Origin: Calorimonas adulescens
GTDB lineage: Bacteria; Bacillota; Thermoanaerobacteria; Thermoanaerobacterales; UBA4877
Assembly: GCF_008274215.1 (NCBI RefSeq)
Contig: NZ_VTPS01000020.1
Location: 1 to 45,916, forward strand
DNA: 45,916 bases
Direction of reading: 5' to 3'
Part shown: positions 19,562 to 36,762 of the stretch, one piece after another
How the letters are laid out: every line of letters starts with the position of its first letter
Numbering within the stretch: the stretch's first letter is position 1
The notes under the pieces: model-generated
What the model was told of the DNA's origin: nothing
What the model saw: only the letters and a program-made list of their open reading frames with translations
Database searches by the model: none
Position numbers and translations under genes: made by a program

Positions 19562-19582
19562 TAACTTGAAAGGGGGATTTCA

Positions 19583-20842: not shown

Positions 20843-20865
20843 CGGACAATGTGTCCGTTACTTTG
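20835..20865 (+). other. Intercistronic hairpin between IIC and IIA genes
   Basis: A perfect 14-bp stem (20835-20848 with 20852-20865) with a 3-nt loop overlaps the IIC stop codon. The T-run behind it is weak, so partial termination or mRNA processing is likely. Confidence 0.6.
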
Positions 20866-20913
20866 ACTTATTATATAATTTAAAAACTCTGACATTATAT
20901 TTAAGGAGAGATT

Positions 20914-21252
20914 ATGATGGACCTTGAAAGAGACATACTTAACCTCATAGCTTATAGTGGTGAAGCTCGAAGCCTTGCTATGGAAGCTATAGGATATGCT
21001 AAAAATGGAGAATATGAAAGGGCTGAAGAGAGTCTCAATGAAGCTGATGAAAAACTTGCAATGGTACATGATATGCAGACAAAACTTCTGCAGAGGGAGG
21101 CATCTGGAGAGAGCTTTTCCATGTCAATCCTTCTTGTACATGCGCAGGATCATCTTATGAATGCCATAACAATACACACACTGGCAAAGGAGTTTTTAGA
21201 TGTATTTAAGAGGCTAAATGAACTGGAAAGGGAGAAAGAGCGGTGCAAATGA
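20914..21252 (+). CDS. celC: PTS lactose/cellobiose-type IIA component
   Basis: A 112-residue helical phosphocarrier. The conserved motif SILLVHAQDHLMNAITI (about 71-87) holds the phosphorylated His. The N-terminal LNLIAYSGEARSLAMEAI and the amphipathic helices are typical for the trimeric IIA family. AAGGAGAG lies upstream of ATG 20914, and a second ATG follows immediately. It overlaps the start of the next gene. It takes phosphate from HPr and gives it to the IIB protein at 19244. Confidence 0.95.
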   Translation: MMDLERDILNLIAYSGEARSLAMEAIGYAKNGEYERAEESLNEADEKLAMVHDMQTKLLQREASGESFSMSILLVHAQDHLMNAITIHTLAKEFLDVFKRLNELEREKERCK

Positions 21253-22334
21253 GAGAACTCGGAATATCTGTTTATCCAGAAAAAGCTGATATAGAAGACA
21301 ACCTTAGGTATATAGATACAGCGTCAAGATATGGTTTTACACGGATATTTACCAATCTTATATCTATAGAAGAAAGTGGAGATATACTGGATAGATTCAA
21401 GAAGATATGTGCTTTTGCCAATGAAAAGGGTATGAACGTGATTGCAGATATAAACCCTGGTGTGCTTAAAACGCTAAATATTGGTGTTGGGGATATGAAG
21501 CTTTTTCATGATCTGAATCTATACGGTATAAGACTTGATACTGGCTTTAGTGGACTGGAAGAGAGTATGATGACTTTTAATCCATATGGTTTGAAGATAG
21601 AAATAAATATGAGTTCTGGGACCAAGTATCTTGAGACGATTATGGAATACAAGCCAAATGTTGAAAATCTGTTAGGATGTCACAACTTCTACCCACTTAA
21701 GTATACAGGGATTTCACGAGAACACTTTATGCGTTGTTCTGAGGTCTATAAAAGGTATGGTATAAAGACAGCTGCATTTGTGACATCGCCAAGTTCAACA
21801 TTTGGGGCCTGGCCAGATAATGACGGGCTTTGCACATTGGAGGAACACAGGGGCCTTCCCATAGACACTCAGGCTAAAGACCTTTTTAATACCGGACTTA
21901 TAGATACTGTAATTATAGGTGACTGCTTTGCATCTGACGAAGAACTAAAGATCCTCGGAGAGATGGACAAGAATATACTGACATTTAACGTTGAATTAAA
22001 TGAAGGTATATCTGAAATAGAGAAAAAGATAGTCTTAGATGAACTTCACATCAACCGCGGAGACATATCGGAGTATGTAATAAGGTCTACGCAGAGCAGG
22101 GTTAAATACAGTGAATATGAATTTAAACTTTTTAATCCCAAAGAAATTATAAAAAAGGGGGACATACTCATACAAAGCTCCCTGTATCAAAGATATGCTG
22201 GTGAGCTGCAGATAGCCTTAAAAGACATGAAAAACAGTGGCAAGACAAATGTGGTTGGCAGAATAGCTAAAGAAGAGATATACCTTCTTGACTACCTCAG
22301 ACCATGGCAAAAATTTAAATTAAAACTGAGATGA
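21249..22334 (+). CDS. DUF871/MupG-family TIM-barrel protein
   Basis: A 361-residue protein of the DUF871 family. MupG in this family splits MurNAc-6-phosphate disaccharides with a TIM-barrel N-domain and a cyclophilin-like C-domain. Matching features are the N-terminal MRELGISVYPEKADIEDN, NLLGCHNFYPLKYTGISREHF (about 140-160), and the C-terminal small domain. GTG at 21243 is an alternative start. The gene lies between IIA and a GH1 enzyme in a sigma-54 PTS operon, so a phosphorylated disaccharide is the likely substrate. Whether it is muropeptide-derived or a plant sugar is open, since family members also occur in beta-glucoside operons. Confidence 0.85.
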   Translation: MRELGISVYPEKADIEDNLRYIDTASRYGFTRIFTNLISIEESGDILDRFKKICAFANEKGMNVIADINPGVLKTLNIGVGDMKLFHDLNLYGIRLDTGFSGLEESMMTFNPYGLKIEINMSSGTKYLETIMEYKPNVENLLGCHNFYPLKYTGISREHFMRCSEVYKRYGIKTAAFVTSPSSTFGAWPDNDGLCTLEEHRGLPIDTQAKDLFNTGLIDTVIIGDCFASDEELKILGEMDKNILTFNVELNEGISEIEKKIVLDELHINRGDISEYVIRSTQSRVKYSEYEFKLFNPKEIIKKGDILIQSSLYQRYAGELQIALKDMKNSGKTNVVGRIAKEEIYLLDYLRPWQKFKLKLR

Positions 22335-22349
22335 CGGAGGCGTGATACG

Positions 22350-23735
22350 ATGAAATACCAATTTCCAGAAGGTTTTTGGTGGGGCAGTGCCTCATCGGCA
22401 GCTCAGATGGAAGGAGCATCACAAGAAGGAGGGAAAGGTTCAAATGTATGGGACTACTGGTACACACAAGAACCCAATGTGTTCTATAATGGTGTAGGGC
22501 CTCAGACTGTAACAGACTTCTATCACAGATACGAAGAAGACATAAAGCTCATGAAAGAATTTGGCCACAACTCCTTCAGGACATCAATCTCATGGTCAAG
22601 ACTCATACCTGAGGGGAAAGGTGAAATCAATCAAGAGGCAGTAAAATTCTATAACAACGTAATAGATCAACTCATAGCTAATGAAATAGAACCGTTTATG
22701 GCCCTCTTTCACTTTGACATGCCGTGGGAGATGCAGAAGATAGGAGGTTTTGAAAACAGAGATGTAGTAGAAGCATATAAAGACTATGCCGGTGCGTGCT
22801 TCAAACTGTTTGGAGACAGGGTAAAGTACTGGTTTACATTCAATGAACCCATAGTGCCGGTAGAGGGAGGCTATCTAAACCAGACCCACTACCCACGCAA
22901 GCAGGACTTTAAGGCAGCCGTGCAGGTAACCTACAATACAATGATAGCCCAGGCGAAAGCCATAGAAGAATATAAAAAGCAGCATCAAAGTGGTAAGATA
23001 GGTGTTATACTGAACCTGTCTCCAGTATATCCAAGGAGCGATAATCCTTTTGACGAAGAAGCGGCCTACATAGCAGACCTGTTTCACAATAGAAGCTTTT
23101 TAGACCCGTCGATAAAAGGGGAATACCCTGAAAAGCTCATAGAAATAATAAAAAGATACAACCTTATGCCTGACATCCAGCCGGGAGACAAAGAGCTTAT
23201 AAGACAAAACACCATACAGATATTAGGTGTAAACTACTACTCACCGAGGAGAGTAAAGGCAAAAGAAACACTACCCAACCCATACTCCCCTATTACCCCT
23301 GAATGGTTCTATGACAACTACGAAATGCCGGGCAGGAAGATGAACCCGTATAGGGGGTGGGAGATATATGAAAAGGGAATATATGACATAATGATAAGGA
23401 TAAGAGACGAATACGGCGACATAGAAAGATACGTATCAGAAAACGGTATGGGAGTAGAAAATGAAGACAGGTTTATAAAAGATGGAATGGTACAGGATGA
23501 TTACCGCATAGAATTTGTAAAAGAGCACCTGAAATGGCTGTATAGATCCATTCAAGAGGGGTGTAACGTAAAGGGATATCATATGTGGACATTTATAGAT
23601 AACTGGTCATGGCTCAATGCCTTTAAAAACAGGTATGGCTTTATATCCCTTGATTTAAAGACGCTTAAGAGAACGCCCAAAAAGAGTGCTTACTGGTTTA
23701 AAGAGATGACAAAAAATAACGGTTTTGAAGAATAG
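22350..23735 (+). CDS. GH1 6-phospho-beta-glucosidase
   Basis: A 461-residue cytoplasmic glycoside hydrolase family 1 enzyme. The acid/base Glu166 is in FTFNEP and the nucleophile Glu364 in YVSENGMG. The N-terminal FPEGFWWGSASSAAQMEG is the family signature. The C-terminal LDLKTLKRTPKKSAYWFKEM has the Lys-rich phosphate-binding region expected of 6-phospho enzymes. It splits the phosphorylated disaccharide brought in by the PTS into glucose and glucose-6-phosphate (or an amino-sugar equivalent). It is the last gene of the operon, 15 nt after the MupG-like gene. Confidence 0.95.
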   Translation: MKYQFPEGFWWGSASSAAQMEGASQEGGKGSNVWDYWYTQEPNVFYNGVGPQTVTDFYHRYEEDIKLMKEFGHNSFRTSISWSRLIPEGKGEINQEAVKFYNNVIDQLIANEIEPFMALFHFDMPWEMQKIGGFENRDVVEAYKDYAGACFKLFGDRVKYWFTFNEPIVPVEGGYLNQTHYPRKQDFKAAVQVTYNTMIAQAKAIEEYKKQHQSGKIGVILNLSPVYPRSDNPFDEEAAYIADLFHNRSFLDPSIKGEYPEKLIEIIKRYNLMPDIQPGDKELIRQNTIQILGVNYYSPRRVKAKETLPNPYSPITPEWFYDNYEMPGRKMNPYRGWEIYEKGIYDIMIRIRDEYGDIERYVSENGMGVENEDRFIKDGMVQDDYRIEFVKEHLKWLYRSIQEGCNVKGYHMWTFIDNWSWLNAFKNRYGFISLDLKTLKRTPKKSAYWFKEMTKNNGFEE

Positions 23736-23925: not shown

Positions 23926-24279
23926 TTAGCTGTTTCCGGTTTTGTTAGTTGGGGAATACTTTATTATTTCTACATCCTGGATAACTATCATCAATCCCTC
24001 TTGAATCATTTCATCTAGTACATCTATAATTTGCATTATTTTCTCTTCCTTATCTACTATTTCTATGACAATGGGAAGGTCTTCAGATAACCTGAGTATT
24101 CTTGAGGTATGTATTCTACTATTAGCACCATAACCCTCTATGCCCCTGATTATAGTGGCACCGGCCATATTGTTTTCCTTTATTTTCTTTAGTATAGCAT
24201 GATAAAGAGGTTCCCCATGCCAGTGGTCTGATTCCCCTATAAATATTTTTAATAACTTACCCTTGCCCTCAATTTTCAA
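23926..24279 (-). CDS. DUF190 protein of the fluoride operon
   Basis: A 117-residue protein of the DUF190 family, which resembles PII-like regulators in fold. The run GKLLKIFIGESDHWHGEPLY, GATIIRGIEGYGANS and PIVIEIVDKEEKI are typical. The TTG start at 24279 is chosen because GGGGGTGA (24292-24285) precedes it by 5 nt; an ATG at 24294 overlaps that site. DUF190 genes are frequent partners of crcB and probably tune or accompany the channel. It lies just downstream of crcB and so under the same fluoride riboswitch. Confidence 0.85.
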   Translation of the reverse strand: MKIEGKGKLLKIFIGESDHWHGEPLYHAILKKIKENNMAGATIIRGIEGYGANSRIHTSRILRLSEDLPIVIEIVDKEEKIMQIIDVLDEMIQEGLMIVIQDVEIIKYSPTNKTGNS

Positions 24280-24300
24280 AATGTTCACCCCCATAAAGAC

Positions 24301-24678
24301 CTATGCCAGTATTTGAGCACAAATCCTTCCAAGCCATACAGCCGTTATACCCAATCCTATGTTCAAGAGTATATTTATAAGTGCCAAAACATTACTACCA
24401 TCACTGAGCATGATAGCTGTTTCATAACTAAGGGTGGAAAAAGTCGTAAAACCTCCCATAAAGCCAGTGGTCAAAAATATGCGGAGTTCGGCTGATAAAG
24501 GGAACACTGCCGTAGCAGCCTCCATAATAAAACCTATAAGGAAACACCCTGACACGTTTACCAGCAAAGTGCCCATTGGTATATTACTGCTAAAATAAGT
24601 CTCGGCCCATCCTGAAATTAAATACCTTAGTATGGAGCCAATGAAACCTCCAATACCTACTAAAAGTACTCTGCCCAA
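24301..24678 (-). CDS. crcB: CrcB/Fluc fluoride channel
   Basis: A 125-residue membrane protein with four helices that exports fluoride as a dual-topology dimer. Signatures are LLVGIGGFIGSILRYL, the pore Asn41 in GTLLVNVSGCFLIGF, and the GFTTFST box at about 76-82. The start is TTG 24678, preceded by AAGGGGA. The longer frame from an ATG at 24747 begins inside the fluoride riboswitch and cannot be right. Expression is controlled by that riboswitch and its terminator. A single CrcB can form the homodimer. Confidence 0.92.
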   Translation of the reverse strand: MGRVLLVGIGGFIGSILRYLISGWAETYFSSNIPMGTLLVNVSGCFLIGFIMEAATAVFPLSAELRIFLTTGFMGGFTTFSTLSYETAIMLSDGSNVLALINILLNIGLGITAVWLGRICAQILA

Positions 24679-24700
24679 ATCATATCCCCTTTCGCTTAAA

Positions 24701-24778
24701 AATAAATAAACTCCTATTATGGCTCTTGCCGTAATAGGAGTTATCATCTGTAAGAACAGCTATAGTGAACTCCATCAC
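24701..24778 (-). promoter_or_regulatory. Fluoride (crcB) riboswitch with terminator platform
   Basis: Minus-strand sequence GTGATGGAGTTCAC (24778-24765) followed by GCTGTTCTTACAGATGA and AACTCCTATTA matches the fluoride aptamer, with GATGGAGTTC and a late CTCCT. AACTCCTATTA also pairs with TAATAGGAGTT to form a terminator with a T-rich tail (24742-24701). Fluoride binding would therefore prevent termination and turn on crcB. The match is by eye to the known consensus. Confidence 0.88.
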
Positions 24779-24860: not shown

Positions 24861-24908
24861 TTGCACGTGCGGGGAGATTATGTTAAAATAATAGTACAAA
24901 ATATTGTA
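24861..24908 (+). promoter_or_regulatory. yhf operon promoter with TACA-N6-TGTA dyad
   Basis: TTGCAC (24861-24866) lies 17 bp from TAAAAT (24884-24889). TACA-AAATAT-TGTA (24895-24908) covers the start site. The same spaced dyad recurs at 25879-25892 inside the operon. Both are likely YhfZ operators for autoregulation. Confidence 0.6.
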
Positions 24909-24927
24909 TATTGTATAGGTGATAGCT

Positions 24928-25860
24928 ATGATAGATAAGCAGCTCCTGACCAAAAACGGAATAGCGGTATTGAGACTTGCGAGGGAGTTAATTTCACTGC
25001 GGCCTGGCCAGCGCATAGAGACAGTGGGGGACTATGCTGATAAGCTGGACCTGGGTAGGGGTACAATACAGTCAGCCTTAAAATACTTAGAGGATTCGGG
25101 AGCAGTGAAGCTGGATGCAAGAGGTCACCTGGGAACGTATATAGAAAGTATAGAATATAAGAAACTGTGGGAGGTGGCAGGTCTAAGGAGCATAACGGGT
25201 GTTATGCCGCTGCCCTATTCCAGGAGGTACGAGGGCCTGGCCACAGGCCTATACAAGACATTTGAAAAGGCCGATATCCCCTTTAATATGGCCTACATGA
25301 GGGGAGGATATAGAAGGGAAGAGGCATTAGAGCAGGACAAGTATGATTTTGCTGTAATGTCTATGCTTGCAGCAGAACTCAATATAGCCTCAGGGAAGGA
25401 TATGGAGATAGCTATGGACTTTGGTCGATATTCTTACGTGGGAGGTCATAAGGTTCTTTTCTCAAATCCTAAAAACAATGAAATAATGGACGGTATGAAG
25501 GTTGCATTAGACAGTAGCTCTGTAGACCATTTCATACTTACATGTTATGAATGTGAAGGTAAACAGGTTGAGTATGTAGAATTGAGCTACAACCAGATTT
25601 TAAAGAGCCTTATGGATGGCAAGATTGATGCAGCAGTGTGGAATATAGATGAGGTGATAGACAGGGGATTGAATATACCGTATTATGACCTTAAAAATCC
25701 CAAGATATTTGAACTTAATGAGAAGGATACAGTGGCTGCTATAGTAGTAAAAAAGTCTAACTGGGGTATAGGCGGGATATTAAAGCATGTAATAGATAAG
25801 GACTTTGTGATGAATGTTCAGAATAAAGTGTTAGCAGGCGAGATACTTCCGGCATATTAA
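24928..25860 (+). CDS. yhfZ: YhfZ-type regulator of the yhf operon
   Basis: A 310-residue protein. The N-terminal winged helix-turn-helix of GntR-like type (about 10-68, core DYADKLDLGRGTIQSALKYLEDSG) is followed by a YhfZ-like substrate-binding-protein fold (about 85-305). The ATG at 24928 has AGGTGAT upstream; a GTG three codons earlier overlaps that site. The E. coli relative heads the yhfZ-yhfS group, and here too it precedes yhfU, yhfT, php, yhfS, yhfX and yhfW. It probably senses the pathway substrate and represses the operon through the TACA-N6-TGTA dyads. The ligand is unknown. Confidence 0.85.
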   Translation: MIDKQLLTKNGIAVLRLARELISLRPGQRIETVGDYADKLDLGRGTIQSALKYLEDSGAVKLDARGHLGTYIESIEYKKLWEVAGLRSITGVMPLPYSRRYEGLATGLYKTFEKADIPFNMAYMRGGYRREEALEQDKYDFAVMSMLAAELNIASGKDMEIAMDFGRYSYVGGHKVLFSNPKNNEIMDGMKVALDSSSVDHFILTCYECEGKQVEYVELSYNQILKSLMDGKIDAAVWNIDEVIDRGLNIPYYDLKNPKIFELNEKDTVAAIVVKKSNWGIGGILKHVIDKDFVMNVQNKVLAGEILPAY

Positions 25861-25874
25861 ATATTTTATATAGT

Positions 25875-25896
25875 AATATACAAAGTTCTGTATATT
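25875..25896 (+). promoter_or_regulatory. Second TACA-N6-TGTA dyad, between yhfZ and the PRD gene
   Basis: The 8-bp arms AATATACA and TGTATATT are separated by AAGTTC. The core TACA-N6-TGTA equals that at 24895-24908. It lies in the short gap after yhfZ, so an internal promoter or roadblock is possible. Confidence 0.6.
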
Positions 25897-25912
25897 GAAT
25901 GGAGGTGCTGAG

Positions 25913-26278
25913 TTGAACGCTATAGACAGGGTAAACATACTCTATGAAAGTGAGGTTATCTCAGCCGATGTGAAAGACACGGTGCTTAGGGTCATAGAAT
26001 GGCTTGGTGAGAGGAAGGTTGGCATAGACTCTGACAATGGGCAGATGTTTCTGACACACCTTGCCATGTCACTTGAAAGGGTTTGCAAAGGGGAAGAAGT
26101 GGATGCCCTGCCCGATGCAATGATGGATGAGGTCAAGTCCAGCAGGGGGTATATCCTTGCTTTAGAGTTTATTGAATATATGGAGGGTATACTAAACAGG
26201 AAGCTTCCGGAGAGTGAAAAAGGATATATACTTTTGCATCTTTCAATACTTCAAGAAAAGGAGGATCAGCATGATTAA
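25913..26278 (+). CDS. Stand-alone PRD-domain protein
   Basis: A 121-residue single PRD (PTS regulation domain). The helical pattern INRV-type start (AIDRVNILYESEVIS), FLTHLAMSLERV with a His at about 51, and YILLHLSILQE with a His near 112 are the two usual phosphorylatable sites. A TTG start at 25913 is chosen since GGAGGTG lies at 25901-25907. Such orphan PRD proteins occur with YhfZ-type operons in Firmicutes. It might bind YhfZ and relay PTS state. The last bases overlap the yhfU start (8 nt). Confidence 0.78.
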   Translation: MNAIDRVNILYESEVISADVKDTVLRVIEWLGERKVGIDSDNGQMFLTHLAMSLERVCKGEEVDALPDAMMDEVKSSRGYILALEFIEYMEGILNRKLPESEKGYILLHLSILQEKEDQHD

Positions 26279-26645
26279 GATTGCAGTAGGAGGGGCTATA
26301 GACAGACAGAAGGTGGCAGAGGCGATAAAGAAAGCAGGAGGTGATAGGGTAGAGGCAAAGGTTATGGCCGACATTGAGGCGGCCATGGCAGTCAAAAATG
26401 GCCAGGCCGAATACTACTTCGGTGCCTGTGCTACAGGTGGCGGCGGTGCCCTTGCTATGGCTATGGCACTTCTTGGGGCACAAAAGTGCGCCACTGTATC
26501 CATGCCGGGAAGGCCACCAAAGGAAGAAGAGGTTGTAAAGGTGGTAGAACAGGGCAAGGTAGCCTTTGGTTTTACCAATGACCACATCGATAGGGCAGTA
26601 CCTATGATTTTAAGTGCCATATTTAAAAAGAAGGGGGAACAGTAA
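26271..26645 (+). CDS. yhfU: YhfU-like protein (DUF2620)
   Basis: A 124-residue protein of the DUF2620 family. It starts MIKIAVGGAIDRQKVAEAIK and carries YYFGACATGGGGALAMAMALLG (about 49-70) and a C-terminal GFTNDHIDRAVPMI. The glycine-rich loop suggests nucleotide or small-ligand binding. The ATG at 26271 has AAAAGGAGG before it; a longer frame runs into the PRD gene. yhfT follows at once (the stop ends at 26645 and the ATG is at 26646). It probably works with the YhfT transporter; the biochemical role is unknown. Confidence 0.88.
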   Translation: MIKIAVGGAIDRQKVAEAIKKAGGDRVEAKVMADIEAAMAVKNGQAEYYFGACATGGGGALAMAMALLGAQKCATVSMPGRPPKEEEVVKVVEQGKVAFGFTNDHIDRAVPMILSAIFKKKGEQ

Positions 26646-27926
26646 ATGAATATTGTGGTAATTGCAGCTATAGGTGCACTGGCAGCTATACTGGCCCAGA
26701 AGGGTATAGCAGTGTTTAACGACGGGCTTCGTCCTATAATGCCTGAGTATCTTGAGGGAAGAATGACCAAGGCAGAGCTTGCTGCCACCAGTTTTGCCAT
26801 GAGCTTTGGACTTGTAATAGGTTTTGGCATACCGGTCTCCATTGGTGCAGCAATACTTTTGGTTCACAGCATACTTCTGGGTACAGACATCATTGGCACA
26901 TGGTCCCCGGAAGGCAACACAGGAAGCATCATAGCAGGAGTAATAGGGGCAGTATATGGTGTGGGGCTTTTGCTTGGACTTCAATGGATAGTAACCTTAT
27001 TTAAATCGTTACCAGTAAACATATTTGATGCCATGGGTGCAGTGGGTACACCGGTAGTGCTTGCCTTTGCAGCGTTTCCAGCCCTGGCTGTTGCTCTTCA
27101 ACATGGCATTTCAAATGGAATAATCACCCTTTCAATATCAGCGCTGGTCAGGATTCTGATTGTCAGATTCAGCCCGTTTGCAATTGGTGGAGCCAATATT
27201 TCATTAAATCCTGATGGGATGGCCATGTTAGCAGGTATGATTATGCTTATAATATATGGCGCTCAAGAGAAGGCCACAGATGATACTAACTTGGCTACAC
27301 TTTTTACTGGCAGGGTGGCAAGAATAAAGAAGAATGTATGGATACTTGCTGTAATGGGAGCACTGGTTGCTGCAGCAACAGCTATGCATCTGCTTGCAGG
27401 TGACCCTATTTCATTGAACCTTGTAAAAGAAACAAAGTACTCTGATGCAGCCTTAACCGCCCTGGCGAGGGCCATAGGATTTGTGCCTCTGGTAGGTACA
27501 ACAGCAATTTCTACAGGTGTATATGGCCCCGTCGGGATGACATTCATATATGCGGCAGCCCTGTTCTCAAATAATCCAATCATAGCTGCTGTGCTGGGAT
27601 TTGTGATAATCTTTGTAGAGGTGTATCTGCTGGGAGGCATAGCCGGTTTCTTGGATAGATTTCCAGGTATAAGGAAATCGGCAGATAATATAAGGACATC
27701 CATGAGTCAGCTATTGGAGATTGCCCTTCTGGTCGGCGGTATTAATGCTGGCAATACTATGATGTCGGGTCTTGGTATGTTCCTTGTAATAGGTATTTAC
27801 CTTTTAAATGAGATTGCAGGTAGACCAATAGTACGCATGGCTATAGGTCCTGTAGGTGCAATAATAGTTGGTATATTAGTAAATGTGCTGGCAGTAATTG
27901 GACTTTATATACCACCGGCTGCATAA
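26646..27926 (+). CDS. yhfT: YhfT-like membrane transporter
   Basis: A 426-residue integral membrane protein with about eleven to thirteen helices. The starting GALAAILAQKGIAVFNDGLRP and YLEGRMTKAELAATSFAMSFG are family features. The gene follows yhfU directly and precedes the pathway enzymes, so it should carry the pathway substrate. No ATPase or PTS partner is associated, but the pairing with YhfU and a PRD protein recalls small-subunit-assisted permeases. The substrate is unknown. Confidence 0.88.
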   Translation: MNIVVIAAIGALAAILAQKGIAVFNDGLRPIMPEYLEGRMTKAELAATSFAMSFGLVIGFGIPVSIGAAILLVHSILLGTDIIGTWSPEGNTGSIIAGVIGAVYGVGLLLGLQWIVTLFKSLPVNIFDAMGAVGTPVVLAFAAFPALAVALQHGISNGIITLSISALVRILIVRFSPFAIGGANISLNPDGMAMLAGMIMLIIYGAQEKATDDTNLATLFTGRVARIKKNVWILAVMGALVAAATAMHLLAGDPISLNLVKETKYSDAALTALARAIGFVPLVGTTAISTGVYGPVGMTFIYAAALFSNNPIIAAVLGFVIIFVEVYLLGGIAGFLDRFPGIRKSADNIRTSMSQLLEIALLVGGINAGNTMMSGLGMFLVIGIYLLNEIAGRPIVRMAIGPVGAIIVGILVNVLAVIGLYIPPAA

Positions 27927-27939
27927 GAAAGGTGATTTT

Positions 27940-28830
27940 ATGAACTCAGTTACAGGTAAACTAGAAAAATTAGGTAGAACTCTTATGCATGAACACCTGA
28001 CTATAGACCTATCGGCAAACAAGAATGAGGATGCAAGTCTCAATGATGAAGAGGCGATAGTAGAAGACCTCAAAGAGATAAGGAACGCAGGCATTGACAC
28101 CATAGTGGATGTGACCAATAGAGGTATGGGCAGGGATATAAGAAAGATGGCCATATTGTCTAAAGCGTCCAACATCAATGTGATAGCCTCTACCGGCTAC
28201 TACAAGACCCCTTACCTCCCTGATGAGGTGAGAAGCAAAAACTATAAGGAACTGGCCGGGATCATGATAAGTGAAATAAGAGAAGGTATAGATGGCACAG
28301 GTATTAAGGCAGGGTTGATAGGTGAAATAGGTACGAGTAATATCTTTACTGAGGAGGAAGAAAAGGTATTTATGGCTGCCTGCTATGCCCATAATGAGAC
28401 AGGAACTCCAATATATACCCATACAACCATGGGTAAATTGGCCATTGAGCAGCTTCAGTTTTTAAAGAGGAATGGCGTAAATCTAAGTAAGGTTATAATA
28501 GGGCATATTGATTTAAACCCAGACATGGATTACTACAGTAGGATACTGGACTATGGATGCTTTGTGGGTTTTGATACCATTGGCAAGCTTAACTACCAGC
28601 CTGACAAACTGCGTGCAGAAAATATATTAAGACTGGTTGACATGGGCTATAGGGACAGGATAGTCCTGTCCCTCGATATTACTAGAAAGTCACACCTTAA
28701 GAGGTATGGCGGTTATGGACATGGGTATATAATGAATACGTTTATACCGATGCTGCTTAAAAATGGTTTAAAACAGGAAGATATAGATAATATGTTGATA
28801 GAAAATCCCGCCCGTATATTTTTGACTTAA
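27940..28830 (+). CDS. php: Phosphotriesterase-homology protein (Php)
   Basis: A 296-residue TIM-barrel hydrolase of the amidohydrolase superfamily. Metal ligands are visible: His17 and His19 in LMHEHL, Glu in GLIGEIGTS (about 131, in place of the carboxylated Lys), His in YTHTTMG, His in IIGHIDLN, and Asp in LSLDIT. An ATG at 27940 has AAAGGTGA upstream; the longer frame overlaps yhfT. Members of the group act on lactones or phosphate esters rather than pesticides. It lies in the yhf operon between transporter and PLP enzymes, so it probably opens a ring or ester of the imported compound. Confidence 0.9.
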   Translation: MNSVTGKLEKLGRTLMHEHLTIDLSANKNEDASLNDEEAIVEDLKEIRNAGIDTIVDVTNRGMGRDIRKMAILSKASNINVIASTGYYKTPYLPDEVRSKNYKELAGIMISEIREGIDGTGIKAGLIGEIGTSNIFTEEEEKVFMAACYAHNETGTPIYTHTTMGKLAIEQLQFLKRNGVNLSKVIIGHIDLNPDMDYYSRILDYGCFVGFDTIGKLNYQPDKLRAENILRLVDMGYRDRIVLSLDITRKSHLKRYGGYGHGYIMNTFIPMLLKNGLKQEDIDNMLIENPARIFLT

Positions 28831-28934
28831 TGTTATAGTAACGAATTTTCAATCCACCAAATGCGTGTATGAAATTTTGACATACCATTGTGGTCTTAAT
28901 GTACGGGAGTCAAAGATAATATGAGGTGAAACAT

Positions 28935-30023
28935 GTGAAGACATTTCCATTAGAGTTTTTAACACTAAATGAGGCAAAAGAACTTCAGTTTAAACTGGTA
29001 GATACTATCACTCGCCACTTTACAGGTACTGATTTTTTAAGCATGGGTGACCTGGGAGTGGTGCCGGGCTATGGGAGGCCCACTGTCACGTCAAAGGTGG
29101 AAAGTGTCATAGCGGATTTCTTTGGTTCAGAGGATGCTGTACTGGTGAGGGGTGCAGGTACAGGTGCTATAAGGTTTGCTCTTCAGGCTTTGTTAAAGCC
29201 CGGGGATAGGGTGCTTATACACGATGCACCTGTTTATTCCACGACAGCTACTACGATGGAATACATGGGCCTTGAGCTTATAAGGGCGGACATGAACGAT
29301 ACAGAGGCAGTTTTGGAGGCATTGTCAGAAGATATAAAGGCGGTGTATATACAGCACTCCAGACAGAAGAGCTCCGATAGGTATGATATGTATGAGCTGA
29401 TCGAAGCTATAAGAGATGCCTCTAATGTTCCAATAATTACCGATGAGAACTATACGGTATTAAAGACCAGATATATAGGCACACAGGTAGGGGCAAATGC
29501 TTCATGCTTTTCATGCTTTAAGCTCTTGGGGCCTGAGGGTATAGGCTGCATAGTATGTGATAAAAATGTCGCTGATAGAATCAGGGAGATGAACTACTCA
29601 GGAGGTGGCCAGGTACAGGGGCATGAGGCTATGGAGGCACTTAGGTCCATGATTTATGTCCCGGTGATGGTTGCTATACAGGCAGAAGAGATTAACAAGG
29701 TAGCTGATGCAATAAATTCGGGTATGATAGAGGGGGCAAAGGCGGCATATATCACCAATGCCCAGTCCAGGACTATCCTTGTGGAACTCTGCGAGCCTAT
29801 CTCGGCTAAGGTTATAAAAGAGGCAGATAGACTTGGTGCAGCAACGCACCCTGTGGGTGCAGAGTCCAGGTACGAGGCTACTCCTATGTTTTACAGGGCA
29901 TCAGGTACCTTTATAAAAGATAACCCTGAAATAAAAGACTATATGATAAGGGTAAATCCCATGAGAGCTGGAAGTGAGACTGTTTTAAGGATATTGAAAG
30001 AGGCCATTGAGAAAGCCAGGTGA
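28935..30023 (+). CDS. yhfS: YhfS-like PLP-dependent fold-type I aminotransferase or lyase
   Basis: A 362-residue PLP enzyme of the cystathionine-synthase/aminotransferase fold. The Schiff-base Lys196 is in FSCFKLLGPEGIGC and the cofactor Asp170 in IITDENY. GAGTGAIRFALQALL (about 74-88) is the phosphate-holding loop. GTG 28935 is preferred, with GAGGTGA at 28923-28929 just upstream; another GTG lies at 28926. It overlaps no neighbour but is 104 bp after php. It acts in the yhf pathway on an amino-acid-like intermediate; the reaction is not known. Confidence 0.88.
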   Translation: MKTFPLEFLTLNEAKELQFKLVDTITRHFTGTDFLSMGDLGVVPGYGRPTVTSKVESVIADFFGSEDAVLVRGAGTGAIRFALQALLKPGDRVLIHDAPVYSTTATTMEYMGLELIRADMNDTEAVLEALSEDIKAVYIQHSRQKSSDRYDMYELIEAIRDASNVPIITDENYTVLKTRYIGTQVGANASCFSCFKLLGPEGIGCIVCDKNVADRIREMNYSGGGQVQGHEAMEALRSMIYVPVMVAIQAEEINKVADAINSGMIEGAKAAYITNAQSRTILVELCEPISAKVIKEADRLGAATHPVGAESRYEATPMFYRASGTFIKDNPEIKDYMIRVNPMRAGSETVLRILKEAIEKAR

Positions 30024-30027
30024 TGAC

Positions 30028-31185
30028 ATGTTTTTAGAGGCAGTATTAAAGAGCAATCCAGCATTGATAGACGCAGCATATAAACTATATAAGGATGGAG
30101 ATATTGGCCCTAACACATACTGTGTGGACCTAAGCATGATTAAGAGGAATGCCTCTCTCATTGCTCGGGAAGGGAAAGAGTACGGTATAGAGCTATACTT
30201 TATGACAAAACAGTTTGGACGAAATCCGGTTATTTCCCAGGCTATAGTTGAAAGCGGTATTGAAAAGGCCGTGGCTGTGGATATGGATGAGGCAAGGGTC
30301 TTGCATAGAAACGGTATTAAGATAGGCCATATGGGCCACCTGGTACAGATAGCGAAGAGGGATATAAAAGAGGCACTGGATATGAGGCCTGAGGTCATAA
30401 CCTGTTTTAGTGCAGAGAAGGCTGCAGAGATAAATGAGGTGGCTGCTGAAATGGGCCTCATCCAGGATATACTCCTCAGGGTAATAGATAATGGAGACTA
30501 TATATATCCAGGACAGGAAGGTGGTATAAGGCTTGAATGCTTAGAGGAGACGGTAGATAGCATAAGTAAGCTTGGCAATGTGAGGATTGTTGGTGTGACA
30601 TCTTTTCCGTGTTTTCTATATAGTGAAGATAGCAGGGCTATTGAACCCACAACGAATGTTTATACGATTAAAAGAGCAGCAGAAATTTTGAGAGGCATGG
30701 GTATTGAGGTCAAGCAGATAAACGGCCCCAGTGCCACATGTGTTTCGTCCATACCCATTTTAAAGAAGATGGGGATGACCCATGGGGAGCCTGGCCACGC
30801 TCTTACAGGTACTACGCCGCTCCATGCCCGTGGGGATGAACCTGAGGGCCAGGCCATAGTCTATATCACAGAGGTATCTCACAGGGATAGGGACAGGGCC
30901 TACGTATTTGGAGGTGGGTTTTATCCACGTTCCCGTATGAAAAAAGCATACAGCCCGCGGCTTAAGACAACATTTGACGTGGAGGAGATACCGGCCGAGT
31001 CCATTGACTATTATGGTACAGTTATTGATGATGAAGGACTTTTGAAAATAGGTGACACTCTCATATATGCTTTCAGGACACAGGTATTTGTCACAAGGGC
31101 AAAGGTAGCAGTGATAGATGGCATACGTGAGGGCAGGCCACGTCTTGTTGGCATTTTCACTTCTCTTGGAGATGAGATAAGATGA
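30028..31185 (+). CDS. yhfX: YhfX-like PLP alanine-racemase-fold protein
   Basis: A 385-residue TIM-barrel PLP protein of the alanine racemase N-domain family. The probable Schiff-base Lys61 is in YFMTKQFGRNP. The distal loop NGPSATCVSSIPI and the C-terminal beta-domain (about 265-385) follow. The ATG at 30028 overlaps an AGGTGATG ribosome site in the end of yhfS; yhfW overlaps the stop by 4 nt. It may interconvert D- and L-forms of the amino acid handled by YhfS, or decarboxylate it. The pair racemase-like plus aminotransferase-like is fixed in yhf operons. Confidence 0.88.
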   Translation: MFLEAVLKSNPALIDAAYKLYKDGDIGPNTYCVDLSMIKRNASLIAREGKEYGIELYFMTKQFGRNPVISQAIVESGIEKAVAVDMDEARVLHRNGIKIGHMGHLVQIAKRDIKEALDMRPEVITCFSAEKAAEINEVAAEMGLIQDILLRVIDNGDYIYPGQEGGIRLECLEETVDSISKLGNVRIVGVTSFPCFLYSEDSRAIEPTTNVYTIKRAAEILRGMGIEVKQINGPSATCVSSIPILKKMGMTHGEPGHALTGTTPLHARGDEPEGQAIVYITEVSHRDRDRAYVFGGGFYPRSRMKKAYSPRLKTTFDVEEIPAESIDYYGTVIDDEGLLKIGDTLIYAFRTQVFVTRAKVAVIDGIREGRPRLVGIFTSLGDEIR

Positions 31186-32381
31186 GGAGAGTAATATTGT
31201 TGGTTATAGACAGCCTTGGTGTGGGCGAGATGGACGATGTGGATGCGGTAAGACCGCATGACAAAGGGGCAAATACGCTGAAGCATGTGGCGGAGCAAAG
31301 CAACCTTAATATACCAAACCTGGAGAAGATGGGTGCAGGTTACGTAGTGGAATTAGATAAGATAAAGAGAGTAGAAGAACCTATAGCGAGTTTTGGCAGC
31401 AGCAATCTCGCTCATTTTGGAGCAGACACATACCAGGGCCATCAGGAGATAATGGGTACAAAGCCAAGGATGCCTGTGATGAAACCATTTATATATTATA
31501 TAGACAAGGTAGAAAGAGCCCTCACGGATGCGGGGTATGATGTAGAAAGGCCAGACCCATCTCATCCCTATCTTCTGGTAAATGGTCTGGTAACAGTGGC
31601 AGATAACATTGAGGCCGACCCTGGGCAAAACTACAACCTCACAGCACCCTTAGACTATATATCCTTTGAAGAAGAGCTAAAGATTGGACGTATAGTAAGA
31701 GAAAATGTTGAGGTGGGCAGGGTAATAGTATTTGGTGGCAGAGGTGTAACCATAAAGGATATCCTCAATGCAGTAGAGGTAAAAGAAGGGGATATCACTG
31801 GCATTAATGCACCAAAGTCAGGTGTCTACAGGAATGGCTATATAGTAAGACACTTAGGATATGGTGTAAATCCGGATGTTCAGGTACCTACAATACTAAA
31901 GAGAGCTGGTTATGATGTATCCCTTATAGGAAAGATGGCAGATGTTATAGGGTGCGATGGAGCTGAGTATATGCCAATGGTCGAAACAGAGGGCGTGTTG
32001 GATCTTATACTGGAGAAGATAAAAGCACAGGATAGTGGCCTCATAGCAGCCAATGTGCAGGAGACAGACCTTGCTGGCCACTCCCAGGACCCTGTTAGGT
32101 ATGGAGAAAAGTTGATGACAGTAGACAGATATCTTCCAAGGATTATGGATGGCATGAATGATGAAGATTTACTTATCATCACCGGTGACCACGGTAACGA
32201 CCCAACCATAGGTCATAGCCATCACACCAGAGAAAGGGCCATACTTCTGGTATATGGGAGAAAATTAAAAACTGTGGACTTAGGTATAAGAAATACATTG
32301 TCTGATATAGGTGCAACCATAGCAGAATTTTTCAGGGTAGCAATGCCGGAAAATGGGGCCAGCTTTTTAAATTTGCTATAA
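31182..32381 (+). CDS. yhfW: YhfW-like phosphopentomutase-family metalloenzyme
   Basis: A 399-residue member of the alkaline-phosphatase-like superfamily, nearest to phosphopentomutase. The first metal site is IDSLGVGEMDDVD (Asp9 and following) and the second is ITGDHGNDPTIGHSHHTRE (about 333-351). The insert domain (about 100-215) is present. The ATG overlaps the yhfX stop (ATGA). It probably moves a phosphate within, or isomerises, a phosphorylated intermediate of the yhf pathway. It is the last gene, followed by a strong terminator. Confidence 0.9.
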   Translation: MRRVILLVIDSLGVGEMDDVDAVRPHDKGANTLKHVAEQSNLNIPNLEKMGAGYVVELDKIKRVEEPIASFGSSNLAHFGADTYQGHQEIMGTKPRMPVMKPFIYYIDKVERALTDAGYDVERPDPSHPYLLVNGLVTVADNIEADPGQNYNLTAPLDYISFEEELKIGRIVRENVEVGRVIVFGGRGVTIKDILNAVEVKEGDITGINAPKSGVYRNGYIVRHLGYGVNPDVQVPTILKRAGYDVSLIGKMADVIGCDGAEYMPMVETEGVLDLILEKIKAQDSGLIAANVQETDLAGHSQDPVRYGEKLMTVDRYLPRIMDGMNDEDLLIITGDHGNDPTIGHSHHTRERAILLVYGRKLKTVDLGIRNTLSDIGATIAEFFRVAMPENGASFLNLL

Positions 32382-32408: not shown

Positions 32409-32446
32409 TTGGTGTGCCGGTAGCAGTGCCGGCACACCAATTTTTT
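32409..32446 (+). terminator. yhf operon terminator
   Basis: A perfect 12-bp G+C-rich stem (32409-32420 with 32429-32440) is followed by T6. Confidence 0.92.
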
Positions 32447-32731: not shown

Positions 32732-33418
32732 ATGATAAACAAGGAGCTGCTAAAACCCATAAAGATTGATGATAGTTCCATAAGCGATAAGGTTTTTAAT
32801 TTACTTAAAAATGCAATACTAAGTGGAGAATTAAAGCCTGGGGAGAGGCTGGTAGAACGGAAACTATCGGAAAAGCTGGGTATCTCCCGTACACCTGTGA
32901 GGGAGGCGATACAGAAACTAAAATCGCAAGGCCTGGCCGTGCAGCTTCCAAGGAAGGGGGCGGTGGTCTCCATGGTTACCCCCAGAGAGGTCATAGATGT
33001 ATTTAACATCCGTGAGGTTTTGGAAGGCCTGGCCGCCCGTCTGGCGGCAGAAAATGCCAACAAGAGACAGATAAATCAGCTTAACAGGATACTAAACGAA
33101 ATGGAAAAGTGCGTGGCGTTAAACAATGAGGAAGAACTGGAAGACCTGCACATAAAATTTCATGAAACCATATATAAGATTGCTGGCAATGAGAAACTCT
33201 ATCAGATGCTTATAAATCTTCAGGAATATATCAGGACATATACCCGTGTGGGATACTCATTCCACGGAAGGATAGAAGAGGCTACCATGGAACACAGTCA
33301 GATAGTAAGGGAAATAGAATCCCATAATGCCAGCAGGGCCGAGTATTATGCCAAGAGACATATAGAAAATTCCAGAGATGCATATATAAGCAAACTGGAG
33401 GAAGAAAAGTCTAAATAG
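32732..33418 (+). CDS. GntR-family transcriptional regulator (FadR/FCD type)
   Basis: A 228-residue repressor. The winged helix-turn-helix occupies about residues 15-80 (LKPGERLVERKLSEKLGISRTPVREAIQKL). The all-helical FCD ligand domain (about 90-220) carries metal-site residues such as DLHIKFHETIYKIAGNEKL and the late His of EHSQIVREIESHNA. Regulators of this type sense small carboxylic acids. The ATG at 32732 has GGAGG upstream. The next promoter (acetamidase) contains a repeated ATAGCACAAA element that may be its target; the gene is otherwise monocistronic with its own terminator. Confidence 0.92.
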   Translation: MINKELLKPIKIDDSSISDKVFNLLKNAILSGELKPGERLVERKLSEKLGISRTPVREAIQKLKSQGLAVQLPRKGAVVSMVTPREVIDVFNIREVLEGLAARLAAENANKRQINQLNRILNEMEKCVALNNEEELEDLHIKFHETIYKIAGNEKLYQMLINLQEYIRTYTRVGYSFHGRIEEATMEHSQIVREIESHNASRAEYYAKRHIENSRDAYISKLEEEKSK

Positions 33419-33428
33419 GGTTTACTGA

Positions 33429-33457
33429 AAATGCTGCTTTTTGAGCAGCATTTTTTA
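33429..33457 (+). terminator. GntR gene terminator
   Basis: AATGCTGC (33430-33437) pairs with GCAGCATT (33445-33452), followed by a T-run. Confidence 0.85.
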
Positions 33458-33468
33458 TAATTTATAAG

Positions 33469-33527
33469 ATATAGCACAAACGTCTGTATAACTTTATCTT
33501 GATAACATGCCAGTTTTGTGCTATATT
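33469..33527 (+). promoter_or_regulatory. Acetamidase promoter with distant inverted repeat
   Basis: TTGATA (33499-33504) lies 17 bp from TATATT (33522-33527). Two 12-bp inverted arms, ATATAGCACAAA (33469-33480) and TTTGTGCTATAT (33515-33526), have centres 46 bp apart. The right arm covers the -10. This suits a repressor that bridges both sites, and the GntR protein next door is the natural candidate. The leader to the ATG at 33550 would be very short. Confidence 0.55.
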
Positions 33528-33549
33528 TTCCCGAAAGGGGGAATCGCAT

Positions 33550-34443
33550 ATGGAATATCATATAGAAAAGGAAAAGTGTATTTATAATATGAGTGCTAAT
33601 AATAGGCCTGTATTGATGGTGCCCTCAGGGAGTACAGTCAGGTTTGAGACCTGTGATTGTTTTGCGGACCGTGTCCAGGATGCGGATAGGGGTATAGAAA
33701 GCATTGACTGGGAACATATAAACCCGGTCACAGGGCCTTTATATGTGGAGGGGGCCAGGCCAGGCGATGTGCTGAGGGTGGAAATACTTGATATAATCAT
33801 AAACGACCATGGTGTGATGGCGGCAATACCTGGCTCGGGACTTCTGGGAGAGGGTATAGAAAAAGCTGAGGTGAAGATTGTACCTATTGAGAATGGCCTG
33901 GCCGTGTTCAATAACTCGATAAAACTGCCAATTTCACCAATGATAGGTGTAATTGGTGTGGCACCGGAGTCCGGGTCTATCCCATGTGGCTGCCCGGGTT
34001 CTCACGGTGGCAATATGGACAATACAAGGATAAAAAAGGGTGCCATACTGTATCTACCAGTATTTACAGAAGGTGCTTTGCTCGCTATGGGTGACCTGCA
34101 TGCCTGCATGGGCGATGGTGAGATAATGGTAACCGGGGTGGAGATATCAGGCAGTGTGGACGTAAAGGTTGATGTGTTAAACGGCATGGGCCTGAAAAAT
34201 CCAATGCTTGAGGATGACGAGTATATCTATACCATTGCGTCCAGTGAAAATCTTTTCAAAGCAGTAAAAACTGCTACGAAAGATATGCATGAGTTGGTGA
34301 TGAAATTATTGGGCCTTTCATTTAATGAAGCTGGTATGCTCTTGAGCGCCGCCGGAAATGTTCAGGTCTGTCAGGTGGTAGACCCCATGATGACCGTGAG
34401 GTTTGCCATGCCAAAGGTTTTATTAAAACAGATTGGGGAGTGA
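33550..34443 (+). CDS. Acetamidase/formamidase family protein
   Basis: A 297-residue amide hydrolase of the FmdA/AmdA family. Visible signatures are PGDVLRVEILDI (about 70), CGCPGSHGGNMDNTRIKKGA (about 141-160) and GDLHACMGDGEI (about 180-191), which together carry metal and active-site residues. The ATG at 33550 follows AAAGGGGG; the longer frame would start in the promoter. It removes ammonia from short amides in the cytoplasm. With glutamyl-transferase and peptide uptake downstream it fits a nitrogen-scavenging set. It ends 7 nt before the next gene's start. Confidence 0.92.
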   Translation: MEYHIEKEKCIYNMSANNRPVLMVPSGSTVRFETCDCFADRVQDADRGIESIDWEHINPVTGPLYVEGARPGDVLRVEILDIIINDHGVMAAIPGSGLLGEGIEKAEVKIVPIENGLAVFNNSIKLPISPMIGVIGVAPESGSIPCGCPGSHGGNMDNTRIKKGAILYLPVFTEGALLAMGDLHACMGDGEIMVTGVEISGSVDVKVDVLNGMGLKNPMLEDDEYIYTIASSENLFKAVKTATKDMHELVMKLLGLSFNEAGMLLSAAGNVQVCQVVDPMMTVRFAMPKVLLKQIGE

Positions 34444-34450
34444 ACGCTCT

Positions 34451-36520
34451 ATGCCTGGTACTCTCTTACTCATTGCAAAAGCTGCAAATGCAAAAGAGAT
34501 TTTAAGCAATCAGCTCCGAGAGATATTTCAAGGTAGTATTTTGGTTAAGGCTCGATGCCTTGATGAGCTTTGTCAGGAGGATATTGACGAGGCGTCACTT
34601 GTACTTTTTTCCAACAAGGCTGTATTCAATGAATATAAAAATTCTAAGAATATGCTCATACAGAACTTCTTGGTGGCAGAAAGATACATTTATTTAGACA
34701 ATCTCAACGAGATTATTGCCCTTCCACAAGGGGAAAAAGCACTTGTTGTCAGCAATTTGAAGATTTCAGCCGAGGATACGATAAATGAAATTATTGATGT
34801 TGGCATAAATCACCTGAGGCTTATCCCATATTATCCAGGCTGTGGCCTTGACATAAACGGCATAGATGTAGCAATATCTCCTGCTGCGGGAGACATTGTT
34901 CCAGCAGGCATTAAGAAAGTTATTGATGTTGGGGTAAGGAGGATTGCCATATCAACTATCTTTAAGATAACAAATTTCTTTAACCTCCCGATAGAAATTG
35001 TGGATAAATATATAATAGAATACACAAGGGAGTTTATACTTCAAGCGGAAAAACTTAACCGTACGATCACGACTGAAAACAGACTTAACCATGAACTGGA
35101 TGCCATTTTAAATTCCGTACATGATGCAATAGTTGCCACTGATGCAGATTGCAATATCACTGTATTTAATCCAAAGGCTGAAGAATTATTTGGCTATAAG
35201 AGGACAGAGGTTATGGGTAAAAATATATGTAAAATTATACCCCAAAACAACTTTAGAAAAATCATCGGGCAAAAAAAGGCCCTTTCAGACACTCTTGAAA
35301 GGATAGGCAATAGGCACCTTATCTCCAACAAGACGCCGCTCTTCATGGATGGTACAGTGACCGGTGTGGTTGCCACATACCAGGATGTTACGGAGATGCA
35401 GAGACTTGAGCAGGAGGTGAGGGGTAAGCTCTATGAAAGAGGGCATGTTGCAAGATTTAATTTTGACGACATAGTCAATAAAAGTGATTCAATGTATAGT
35501 GTAGTTAAAAAGGCAAAAAAATTTGCAGCGAGTGAAGAACCAGTACTCCTTAGGGGAGAAACAGGGGTCGGCAAGGAGATGTTTGCACAGGCAATACATA
35601 ACCATTCCGACCGGAGAAACGGTCCGTTTATTGCAGTTAATTTTGGGGCACTTCCTGAGAACCTGGCTGAAAGTGAGCTTTTCGGATATGAGGAAGGGGC
35701 ATTTACGGGCGCGAGGAAAGGAGGTAAGCCTGGCCTTTTTGAGCTTGCTCATAATGGGACAATATTTTTAGATGAGATAGGAGATGCTACGCTTTCTACG
35801 CAGGTAAAGATACTAAGGATTTTACAGGAAAAATGCGTCATACGTCTTGGTGCAACCAAGGTTATACCGGTAAACGTTAGAATAATAGCGGCTACAAATA
35901 GAGATCTAAAAGAGTTGATCCGTCAGGGGAAATTTAGGGAGGACCTCTATTACAGATTGAATGTGCTTAGTATTTCCATACCATCGCTCAGAGAGAGAAA
36001 AGAGGATATTGTGGCACTGGCGGAATACTTTATGTCCCAGTATTGCCCTGGTTTAGTACTGTCAGATGAGGTAAAAATGCTGTTCTACAATTACCCATGG
36101 CCAGGCAATGTGAGAGAACTGGAAAATGTTATTAGGTATATATCTGCTACGTGTGAAAATAAAGAAGTGAGATTGGATGATCTCCCACATGAAATAATTA
36201 ATATGAATTTGAAAGATGAATTGTCAACCAACTCAGTGGGAGAAATTTTCCGTAGTAAGGACAGAAAAGCGGCGGAATATGAGTATATTTTGCGTATTCT
36301 TAAACATTATTATGATACTGGCAGAGTGTGCGGCAGAGGCACAATCTTACTGGAGCTTAACAATAGATACGGGCTGGGGTTAACTGAGGAAAAAGTGAGG
36401 TGGAGGCTTCAGACCCTGTCAAAGATGGGATATATAAATATAGGCAGGACGAAACAGGGCTGTAAGATCACAGAGAACGGCATGAGGGTACTGGAAATGT
36501 TAAACAGGAAAGCAATATGA
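34451..36520 (+). CDS. Sigma-54 activator with PrpR-like N-domain, PAS and atypical C-terminus
   Basis: A 689-residue activator. The order is a PrpR-N/receiver-like sensory part (about 1-195), a PAS domain (about 212-315, core ILNSVHDAIVATDADCNITVF), a sigma-54 AAA+ domain (Walker A GETGVGKE 369-376, GAFTGA 416-421, Walker B TIFLDE 437-442), and a C-terminal winged-helix-like region (about 590-689). The usual Fis-type helix-turn-helix is not visible at the end. Start ATG 34451 has GGGGAG ten nt upstream. The near-perfect sigma-54 promoter at 36623 right behind it makes the glutamyltransferase/peptide-transport genes the likely target. The signal is unknown. Confidence 0.9.
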   Translation: MPGTLLLIAKAANAKEILSNQLREIFQGSILVKARCLDELCQEDIDEASLVLFSNKAVFNEYKNSKNMLIQNFLVAERYIYLDNLNEIIALPQGEKALVVSNLKISAEDTINEIIDVGINHLRLIPYYPGCGLDINGIDVAISPAAGDIVPAGIKKVIDVGVRRIAISTIFKITNFFNLPIEIVDKYIIEYTREFILQAEKLNRTITTENRLNHELDAILNSVHDAIVATDADCNITVFNPKAEELFGYKRTEVMGKNICKIIPQNNFRKIIGQKKALSDTLERIGNRHLISNKTPLFMDGTVTGVVATYQDVTEMQRLEQEVRGKLYERGHVARFNFDDIVNKSDSMYSVVKKAKKFAASEEPVLLRGETGVGKEMFAQAIHNHSDRRNGPFIAVNFGALPENLAESELFGYEEGAFTGARKGGKPGLFELAHNGTIFLDEIGDATLSTQVKILRILQEKCVIRLGATKVIPVNVRIIAATNRDLKELIRQGKFREDLYYRLNVLSISIPSLRERKEDIVALAEYFMSQYCPGLVLSDEVKMLFYNYPWPGNVRELENVIRYISATCENKEVRLDDLPHEIINMNLKDELSTNSVGEIFRSKDRKAAEYEYILRILKHYYDTGRVCGRGTILLELNNRYGLGLTEEKVRWRLQTLSKMGYINIGRTKQGCKITENGMRVLEMLNRKAI

Positions 36521-36521
36521 G

Positions 36522-36559
36522 ATAAGAAATTCTGGTTATATATAACCAGAATTTCTTAT
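36522..36559. terminator. Perfect 38-bp palindrome after the activator gene
   Basis: The stretch 36522-36559 is a perfect palindrome with no loop (core GGTTATATATAACC). It can fold as a terminator, though no long T-run follows. It ends about 65 bp before the -24 box, so it might instead be an activator-binding site. Confidence 0.6.
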
Positions 36560-36622
36560 TTAACAACCAGATAACTAACCAAAATTATCTAAACATACCT
36601 ATAATAGAAGGGATTTATGGTG

Positions 36623-36638
36623 TGGCATGATTCTTGCT
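36623..36638 (+). promoter_or_regulatory. Sigma-54 (-24/-12) promoter of the glutamyltransferase/peptide operon
   Basis: TGGCATG-ATTC-TTGCT, with GG (36624-36625) and GC (36636-36637) spaced by 10, is a close match to the consensus and to the first sigma-54 site in this window. The leader to the ATG is about 115 nt. Confidence 0.88.
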
Positions 36639-36762
36639 AATTAATAAAGACAACACATAAAGCTATATAGTGGAGGGAGGGATACCTGAGCCGACAGAGA
36701 CTGGTTCTCTATTTACTTTTATGAGTTAAAAGGTGATTATATTAAAAGAAAGGTGCAGTGAC

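Follow-up and report, generated by a model that had tools for sequence, protein, structure and literature searches.

A complete yhf operon in Calorimonas adulescens: a predicted YhfZ operator and a tentative link to amino-sugar catabolism

Escherichia coli K-12 carries the yhf operon (b3376-b3383, yhfS-yhfT-yhfU-php-yhfW-yhfX-yhfY-yhfZ), which is found in 5014 of 5426 complete E. coli genomes (about 92%; coverage ≥80%). No published function was found for it in a literature search, with most subscription journals and all preprints outside its scope, and the relatives of its products in the PDB (4j8l, 4kbx, 1bf6/4lef, and 2ozz) were deposited as "uncharacterized", "homology", or "hypothetical" proteins. 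Two other systems invite comparison. Clusters of the EF_0829-EF_0839 type encode PRD, SFCGS, DUF4312, DUF4311, and DUF4310 proteins, an amidohydrolase, a DgaE-family lyase, and a KDGP aldolase, and the chemistry of MupG and the mupG-murQ-murP-murR operon for N-acetylmuramic acid (MurNAc) recovery have been described in Staphylococcus aureus (PMC6262408). Here, we analyse the yhf operon in a 45,916-nucleotide stretch of the Calorimonas adulescens genome (contig NZ_VTPS01000020.1; hereafter the window, to which coordinates refer unless another locus is named). The operon itself is already known; new are an operator motif, a ninth gene, the recruitment of NagB (glucosamine-6-phosphate deaminase), the exchange of YhfW for another phosphatase, and the kinship of YhfU.

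In the window, eight plus-strand genes extend from 24919 (or an ATG at 24928) to 32381 in the order yhfZ-PRD-yhfU-yhfT-php-yhfS-yhfX-yhfW. The reading frames of PRD/YhfU and YhfX/YhfW overlap, the largest intergenic gap is about 95 bases, and an intrinsic terminator (32409-32440, plus strand, a 14-bp stem followed by TTTTTT) lies 3' of yhfW. The eight families form a single block of one orientation, and the locus is orthologous to the yhf operon of E. coli. A preliminary description, made from the sequence of the window, had reported a complete, tightly packed operon in this order and without an established function, and both statements are borne out by the strong matches to curated models, the overlaps and short gaps, and the outcome of the literature and PDB searches. 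It had also regarded the PRD gene as a gram-positive addition, which is incorrect: E. coli K-12 has the same eight families, including the regulator YhfZ and yhfY, annotated as a PRD-domain protein in the same operon, although its order differs from that of the window (yhfZ-yhfY-yhfX-yhfW-php-yhfU-yhfT-yhfS).

Scanning genomes with an alignment of YhfT gave 188 relatives, from which 80 loci were kept, and genome searches added five more. Gene content was counted over 82 comparable loci and upstream motifs over 84-85. The seven non-PRD genes are all clustered in 75 of the 82 loci, and the PRD gene is present in 81. Gene order depends on the lineage (e.g. yhfU-yhfT-php-yhfS-yhfZ-PRD-yhfX-yhfW in Lactobacillales), whereas membership is stable.

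The first gene, yhfZ (24919-25860, plus strand; start at GTG 24919 or ATG 24928), encodes a GntR-like regulator with HTH_41 and a YhfZ_C ligand domain that exceeds the cut-off of equivalog NF041241 (410 vs. 260 bits) and has the PDB relative 2ozz. A putative operator, TACAAAATATTGTA (24895-24908), overlaps the spacer and the -10 element of a promoter-like site at 24883-24912 5' of yhfZ, and another, TACAAAGTTCTGTA (25879-25892), lies within the gap between yhfZ and the PRD gene. In 38 of 85 loci, the underlying palindrome, TACA-N6-TGTA, precedes yhfZ, where about one site would be expected in shuffled sequence (about 40-fold enrichment). It also occurs 5' of the PRD gene in 23 of 84 loci and of yhfU in 20, again with about one site expected. 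It is at background level 5' of yhfT, php, yhfS, yhfX, and yhfW in the surveyed loci. The outer four bases on each side were fixed by the search pattern, but the A/T-rich inner positions were not. The E. coli stretch is without this motif but shows, 5' of yhfZ, a pair of TTCA-N6-TGAA sites that share the 4-6-4 geometry. TACA-N6-TGTA is probably the YhfZ operator, and the simplest reading is that YhfZ would repress the whole operon, its own gene included. The possibility that YhfZ has a wider regulon in the C. adulescens genome was rejected, as two of the four pattern matches lie in the operon and a control pattern equals the match count elsewhere.

The stand-alone PRD-domain protein (25895-26278, plus strand, likely start TTG 25913), the orthologue of E. 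coli YhfY, matches PF00874 (2e-9; 38 bits, cut-off 23). Both PRD histidines are kept, H55 in all sequences and H115 in 95%, and R62 is likewise invariant (100%). Given this conservation, phosphorylation of the protein by the phosphotransferase system (PTS) is possible. The PTS-linked control proposed in the preliminary description is therefore plausible, although it is not specific to Gram-positives.

A pointer to the substrate comes from NagB, which is encoded in the fetched stretch of 13 of the 82 loci, against about 0.95 expected from a simple copy-number estimate that ignores relatedness. Its gene overlaps or abuts yhfW in four loci (L012, L023, L024, and L025) and lies inside the operon, between yhfX and an amidase gene, in L088 and L091. 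At least one further nagB is found elsewhere in each of the ten tested genomes with a yhf-linked copy. In the NagB tree, the yhf-linked copies fall into more than one clade, and at least three label changes (gains or losses) are required by well-supported branches, with most other branches being weak. This repeated recruitment points to glucosamine-6-phosphate, or a NagB product or substrate, as an end point of the pathway in those organisms. In L083 (8130-8882), nagB is found on the opposite strand between yhfZ and the PRD gene, within the span of the operon.

Genes for MurNAc recovery are also found beside the operon. MurQ, MurP-like EIIBC, and MupG genes adjoin yhf in Thermoanaerobacter/Caldanaerobacter, Halanaerobium, and one Sporomusaceae genome (MupG at six loci, p=4e-4; MurQ at four loci, p=1e-3; simple copy-number estimates, with two loci from close relatives). 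Relatives of the S. aureus genes mupG, murQ, and murP thus adjoin yhf in several lineages, but the yhf genes themselves are not members of the S. aureus pathway.

The last gene, yhfW (31182-32381, plus strand; YhfW model NF009049, 590 bits, cut-off 254), encodes a phosphatase or phosphomutase of the alkaline phosphatase superfamily. It keeps the metal ligands of phosphopentomutase (DeoB), with D296, H300, D336, H337, and H348 in 80 of 80 sequences and D10 in each of the 67 rows that reach this position, and position 83, the phospho-acceptor nucleophile, is T or S in 80 of 80. At 185 bits it nevertheless falls below the cut-off of the DeoB equivalog TIGR01696 (341 bits) and is distinct from DeoB. 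YhfW is missing from seven of the 82 loci, two of which, L026 and L056, are cut off by the end of their contig. The five complete YhfW-less loci all have a gene for a PHP-domain phosphatase nearby, compared to one of the 75 loci with YhfW (Fisher p=4.5e-6, all 82 loci), and their genomes contain only DeoB-like relatives. This pairing suggests that YhfW contributes removal of a phosphate, a mutase role also being possible.

YhfU (DUF2620; 26271-26645, plus strand; PF10941, 2e-48) appears to be an RpiB-like alpha/beta protein. Its AlphaFold2 model (pLDDT 95.9) gave RpiB chains as the best listed TM-scores (0.62-0.65), but with Foldseek E above 0.01, and the RpiB profile (hhalign) gave a weak sequence signal (p=0.0024). 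The invariant C53-x-T55-G56 aligns with the C-x-T-G of RpiB and may correspond to the Cys-x-Thr/Ser-Gly anion-hole loop of RpiB/LacAB in which, for RpiB, the Cys serves as base and the Thr as proton shuttle (PMC4783025). YhfU is also profile-related to the SFCGS protein EF_0830 over 116 columns, nearly its full length (p=7.8e-6), and the LacAB_rpiB model matches an SFCGS gene directly (E=7e-5, under the curated cut-off). The PRD protein is likewise profile-related to EF_0829 (p=2.7e-6). The EF_0829-EF_0839 type cluster resembles yhf in related PRD and YhfU/SFCGS proteins, a metal amidohydrolase, and a fold-type-I pyridoxal phosphate (PLP) enzyme. In contrast, its transporter is another one without detectable relation to YhfT, a KDGP aldolase takes the place of YhfX/YhfW, and a BglG-type regulator stands where yhf has YhfZ. 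YhfU stays under the curated cut-offs of the EF family (PF14272, 14.5 vs. 27.3 bits; TIGR03577, 16.2 vs. 141.1 bits), and its relation is therefore one of kinship and not of membership. The Enterococcus faecalis copy of the cluster also encodes a PTS IIC component and a member of the MupG family.

The remaining products supply hydrolytic and PLP-dependent chemistry and presumed uptake. Php (yhfV; 27940-28830, plus strand) is a metal-dependent hydrolase of the phosphotriesterase (PTE) family (PF02126, 306 bits, 3e-91) with conserved H17-x-H19, E129, H161, H189, and D246. E. coli PHP (1bf6/4lef) is its best PDB relative, yet it is divergent from the E. coli model, remaining below the cut-off of equivalog NF007373 (315 vs. 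486 bits). Kinship with the COG3964-type amidohydrolase of the EF cluster was rejected, as the profile signal is weak (p=0.006). YhfS (28926-30023, plus strand, start at GTG 28926 or 28935; PF22475, YhfS-like_C, 1e-42) is a fold-type-I PLP enzyme with an invariant candidate PLP lysine (K199, 100%) and the PDB relative 4j8l. It is profile-related to the DgaE-family lyase (p=8.7e-8), and more weakly to a general aminotransferase profile (1.4e-5). YhfX (30028-31185, plus strand; PF21279 and PF01168; YhfX-like_C, 1e-29) has the alanine-racemase fold (type III) of PLP proteins, an equally invariant candidate lysine (K60, 100%, numbered from 30031), and the PDB relative 4kbx. YhfT (26646-27926, plus strand; PF10797, 2e-188) is a polytopic membrane protein that we infer to be a transporter from its topology and context. 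A PDB fold search with its AlphaFold2 model (pLDDT 87.1, pTM 0.84) gave no useful match to solved structures. Two candidate relationships of YhfT were rejected, one to a fused DUF4311/DUF4310 transporter (no profile signal) and one to UlaA/GatC-like PTS permeases (no listed PDB match with TM >0.16).

Beyond these eight genes, a ninth, encoding an amidase-signature protein of about 370 residues, lies in or adjoins the operon in 49 of the 82 loci, and its Lys-Ser-Ser triad (K61, S111, and S135) is kept in 94-96% of 53 rows. The gap between php and yhfS in the window is only 95 bases, without a visible coding remnant of such a gene, and the idea that the amidase and a beta-lactamase-family hydrolase replace each other was dropped for lack of anticorrelation (p=0.76). 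In Thermoanaerobacter thermocopriae (L019, 3199-4313 and 6275-7522), yhfX lies in three frames and the amidase gene in two, which may reflect decay or sequencing error, and the amidase gene is split in L040 (3258-4315).

Our tentative best hypothesis is that the operon is inducible and serves the catabolism of an amino-sugar conjugate, under the control of YhfZ and with sensing of the PTS, and with an exit via glucosamine-6-phosphate. YhfT would take up an amino-sugar/amino-acid conjugate, N-acylated or amide-linked and most probably a product of cell-wall turnover, or else a related sugar-amine, and Php, together with the amidase in most other copies of the operon, would hydrolyse it by amide or ester cleavage. 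YhfX and YhfS may then work on the amino-acid-like part, by racemisation or elimination followed by lyase or transaminase chemistry, while the RpiB-like YhfU would isomerise or bind a sugar intermediate, and YhfW would take off or move a phosphate. The sugar half would leave as glucosamine-6-phosphate, which NagB would drain to fructose-6-phosphate. A metabolite would release YhfZ from TACA-N6-TGTA 5' of yhfZ and the PRD gene, and the PRD protein may signal the state of the PTS. The computed support consists of the unity of the operon, the operator motif, the family relations, the conservation of catalytic residues, the YhfW/phosphatase swap, and the recruitment of NagB; we infer the catabolic direction, the substrate, the order of the steps, the role of YhfU, and the binding of YhfZ to the motif.

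Several observations weigh against this hypothesis. NagB is missing from the stretch examined in 69 of the 82 loci, the window included, and does not adjoin the E. coli yhf operon, and it may therefore be accessory or run in reverse. MurNAc genes adjoin only a few copies of yhf, and the MupG gene of the window (21243-22334) is part of another PTS operon, set apart from yhf by two opposite-strand genes, which makes it weak evidence. Neither the genome of the window nor its near relative G298 yielded a relative of the amidase encoded by the ninth gene, so that an amide-cleaving step, if needed, would be done otherwise there. None of the structural matches of YhfU reaches a Foldseek E of 0.001, and because the protein is without the N-terminal SDH motif and the C-terminal arginines of RpiB/LacAB (residues according to PMC4783025), it looks RpiB-like and not RpiB. 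Finally, the PHP-domain swap is restricted to three genera, with few independent events, and one locus holds both genes.

These points leave room for other explanations. In a pathway without a sugar part, for a D- or phosphorylated amino acid-like compound as proposed in the preliminary description, Php and the amidase would free an amino acid that YhfX racemises and YhfS deaminates or cleaves, with YhfW acting as the phosphatase. The two PLP enzymes with invariant lysines, the racemase fold of YhfX, and the replacement of YhfW by a phosphatase family agree with this, but the repeated recruitment of an extra NagB, the RpiB-like YhfU, and the homology to the cluster with DgaE, a PLP enzyme family that takes its name from an amino-sugar acid substrate, do not. 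We consider it somewhat unlikely. Such a substrate would be just one half of the picture that comparison gives: the repeated arrival of NagB speaks for an amino-sugar part, and the amidase that this copy is missing is usually there. The operon might instead handle glycation (Amadori or Heyns) products as a partner of frl in E. coli, splitting a sugar-amine into an amino acid and a hexosamine phosphate. This would account for NagB and for the fructoselysine operon frlABCDR, which directly adjoins yhf in E. coli, but is improbable: among the neighbours that recur in Firmicutes, no frl genes were recognised, and the operon is without a deglycase.

Salvage of a phosphonate or organophosphate, with Php and YhfW cleaving the phosphorus compound and the PLP enzymes processing the amine, would fit the phosphotriesterase and alkaline phosphatase superfamilies, and a downstream FCD-type GntR regulator resembles phnR_burk, below the cut-off. 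It is highly improbable, however: no phosphonate-cleaving or phosphonate-transport families were recognised in the operon, the regulator sits behind the terminator, and the linkage to NagB is left unexplained. An anabolic or modification pathway for an amino-sugar or D-amino-acid cell-wall component seems just as improbable. The reaction of NagB is reversible, and the enzyme could make glucosamine-6-phosphate; the D-amino-acid-type PLP folds and the links to MurNAc genes would also agree. Hydrolases, a presumed permease, and a repressor with a ligand domain are nevertheless typical of catabolism, and the operon is without a ligase or transferase.

Other genes of the window flank the operon on both sides. 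Upstream (16371-23735) lie a sigma-54/PRD activator, a lactose-type PTS (IIB, IIC, and a 112-aa IIA-looking frame), a MupG-family protein, and a family-1 glycosidase, followed on the minus strand (23926-24747) by two small frames that, by eye only, resemble DUF190 and FluC/CrcB (fluoride export). Behind the yhf terminator (32732-44112) are the FCD-type GntR regulator, an FmdA/AmdA-type amidase, a sigma-54 activator with PAS, a gamma-glutamyltranspeptidase, and a peptide-type ATP-binding cassette (ABC) transporter. The same genome has a second PTE-family gene (G000:C3, ~111300-112193; L016, 143-9673) beside MurQ, a beta-lactamase-family hydrolase, and a BglG/MtlR-type regulator, in what may be a second amino-sugar cluster with a GatC-type EIIC, a creatininase, and an SIS protein. 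This gene (C3:111300) is a distant paralogue and was rejected as a member of the yhf system.

In its widest form, which we regard as doubtful, the proposal of an amino-sugar pathway would mean that about 92% of complete E. coli genomes and many Firmicutes share an unrecognised catabolism of amino-sugar conjugates, with a transporter (YhfT) of an undescribed fold and a new RpiB-like protein of a YhfU/SFCGS superfamily, whose sugar moiety would end in glucosamine-6-phosphate. The operator, the additional copies of NagB, the absence of the amidase here, and the exchange of YhfW turn a list of uncharacterised genes into a directly testable proposal, and two questions are within reach of experiment: what the molecule is that frees YhfZ from its site, and whether hexosamine phosphate builds up.

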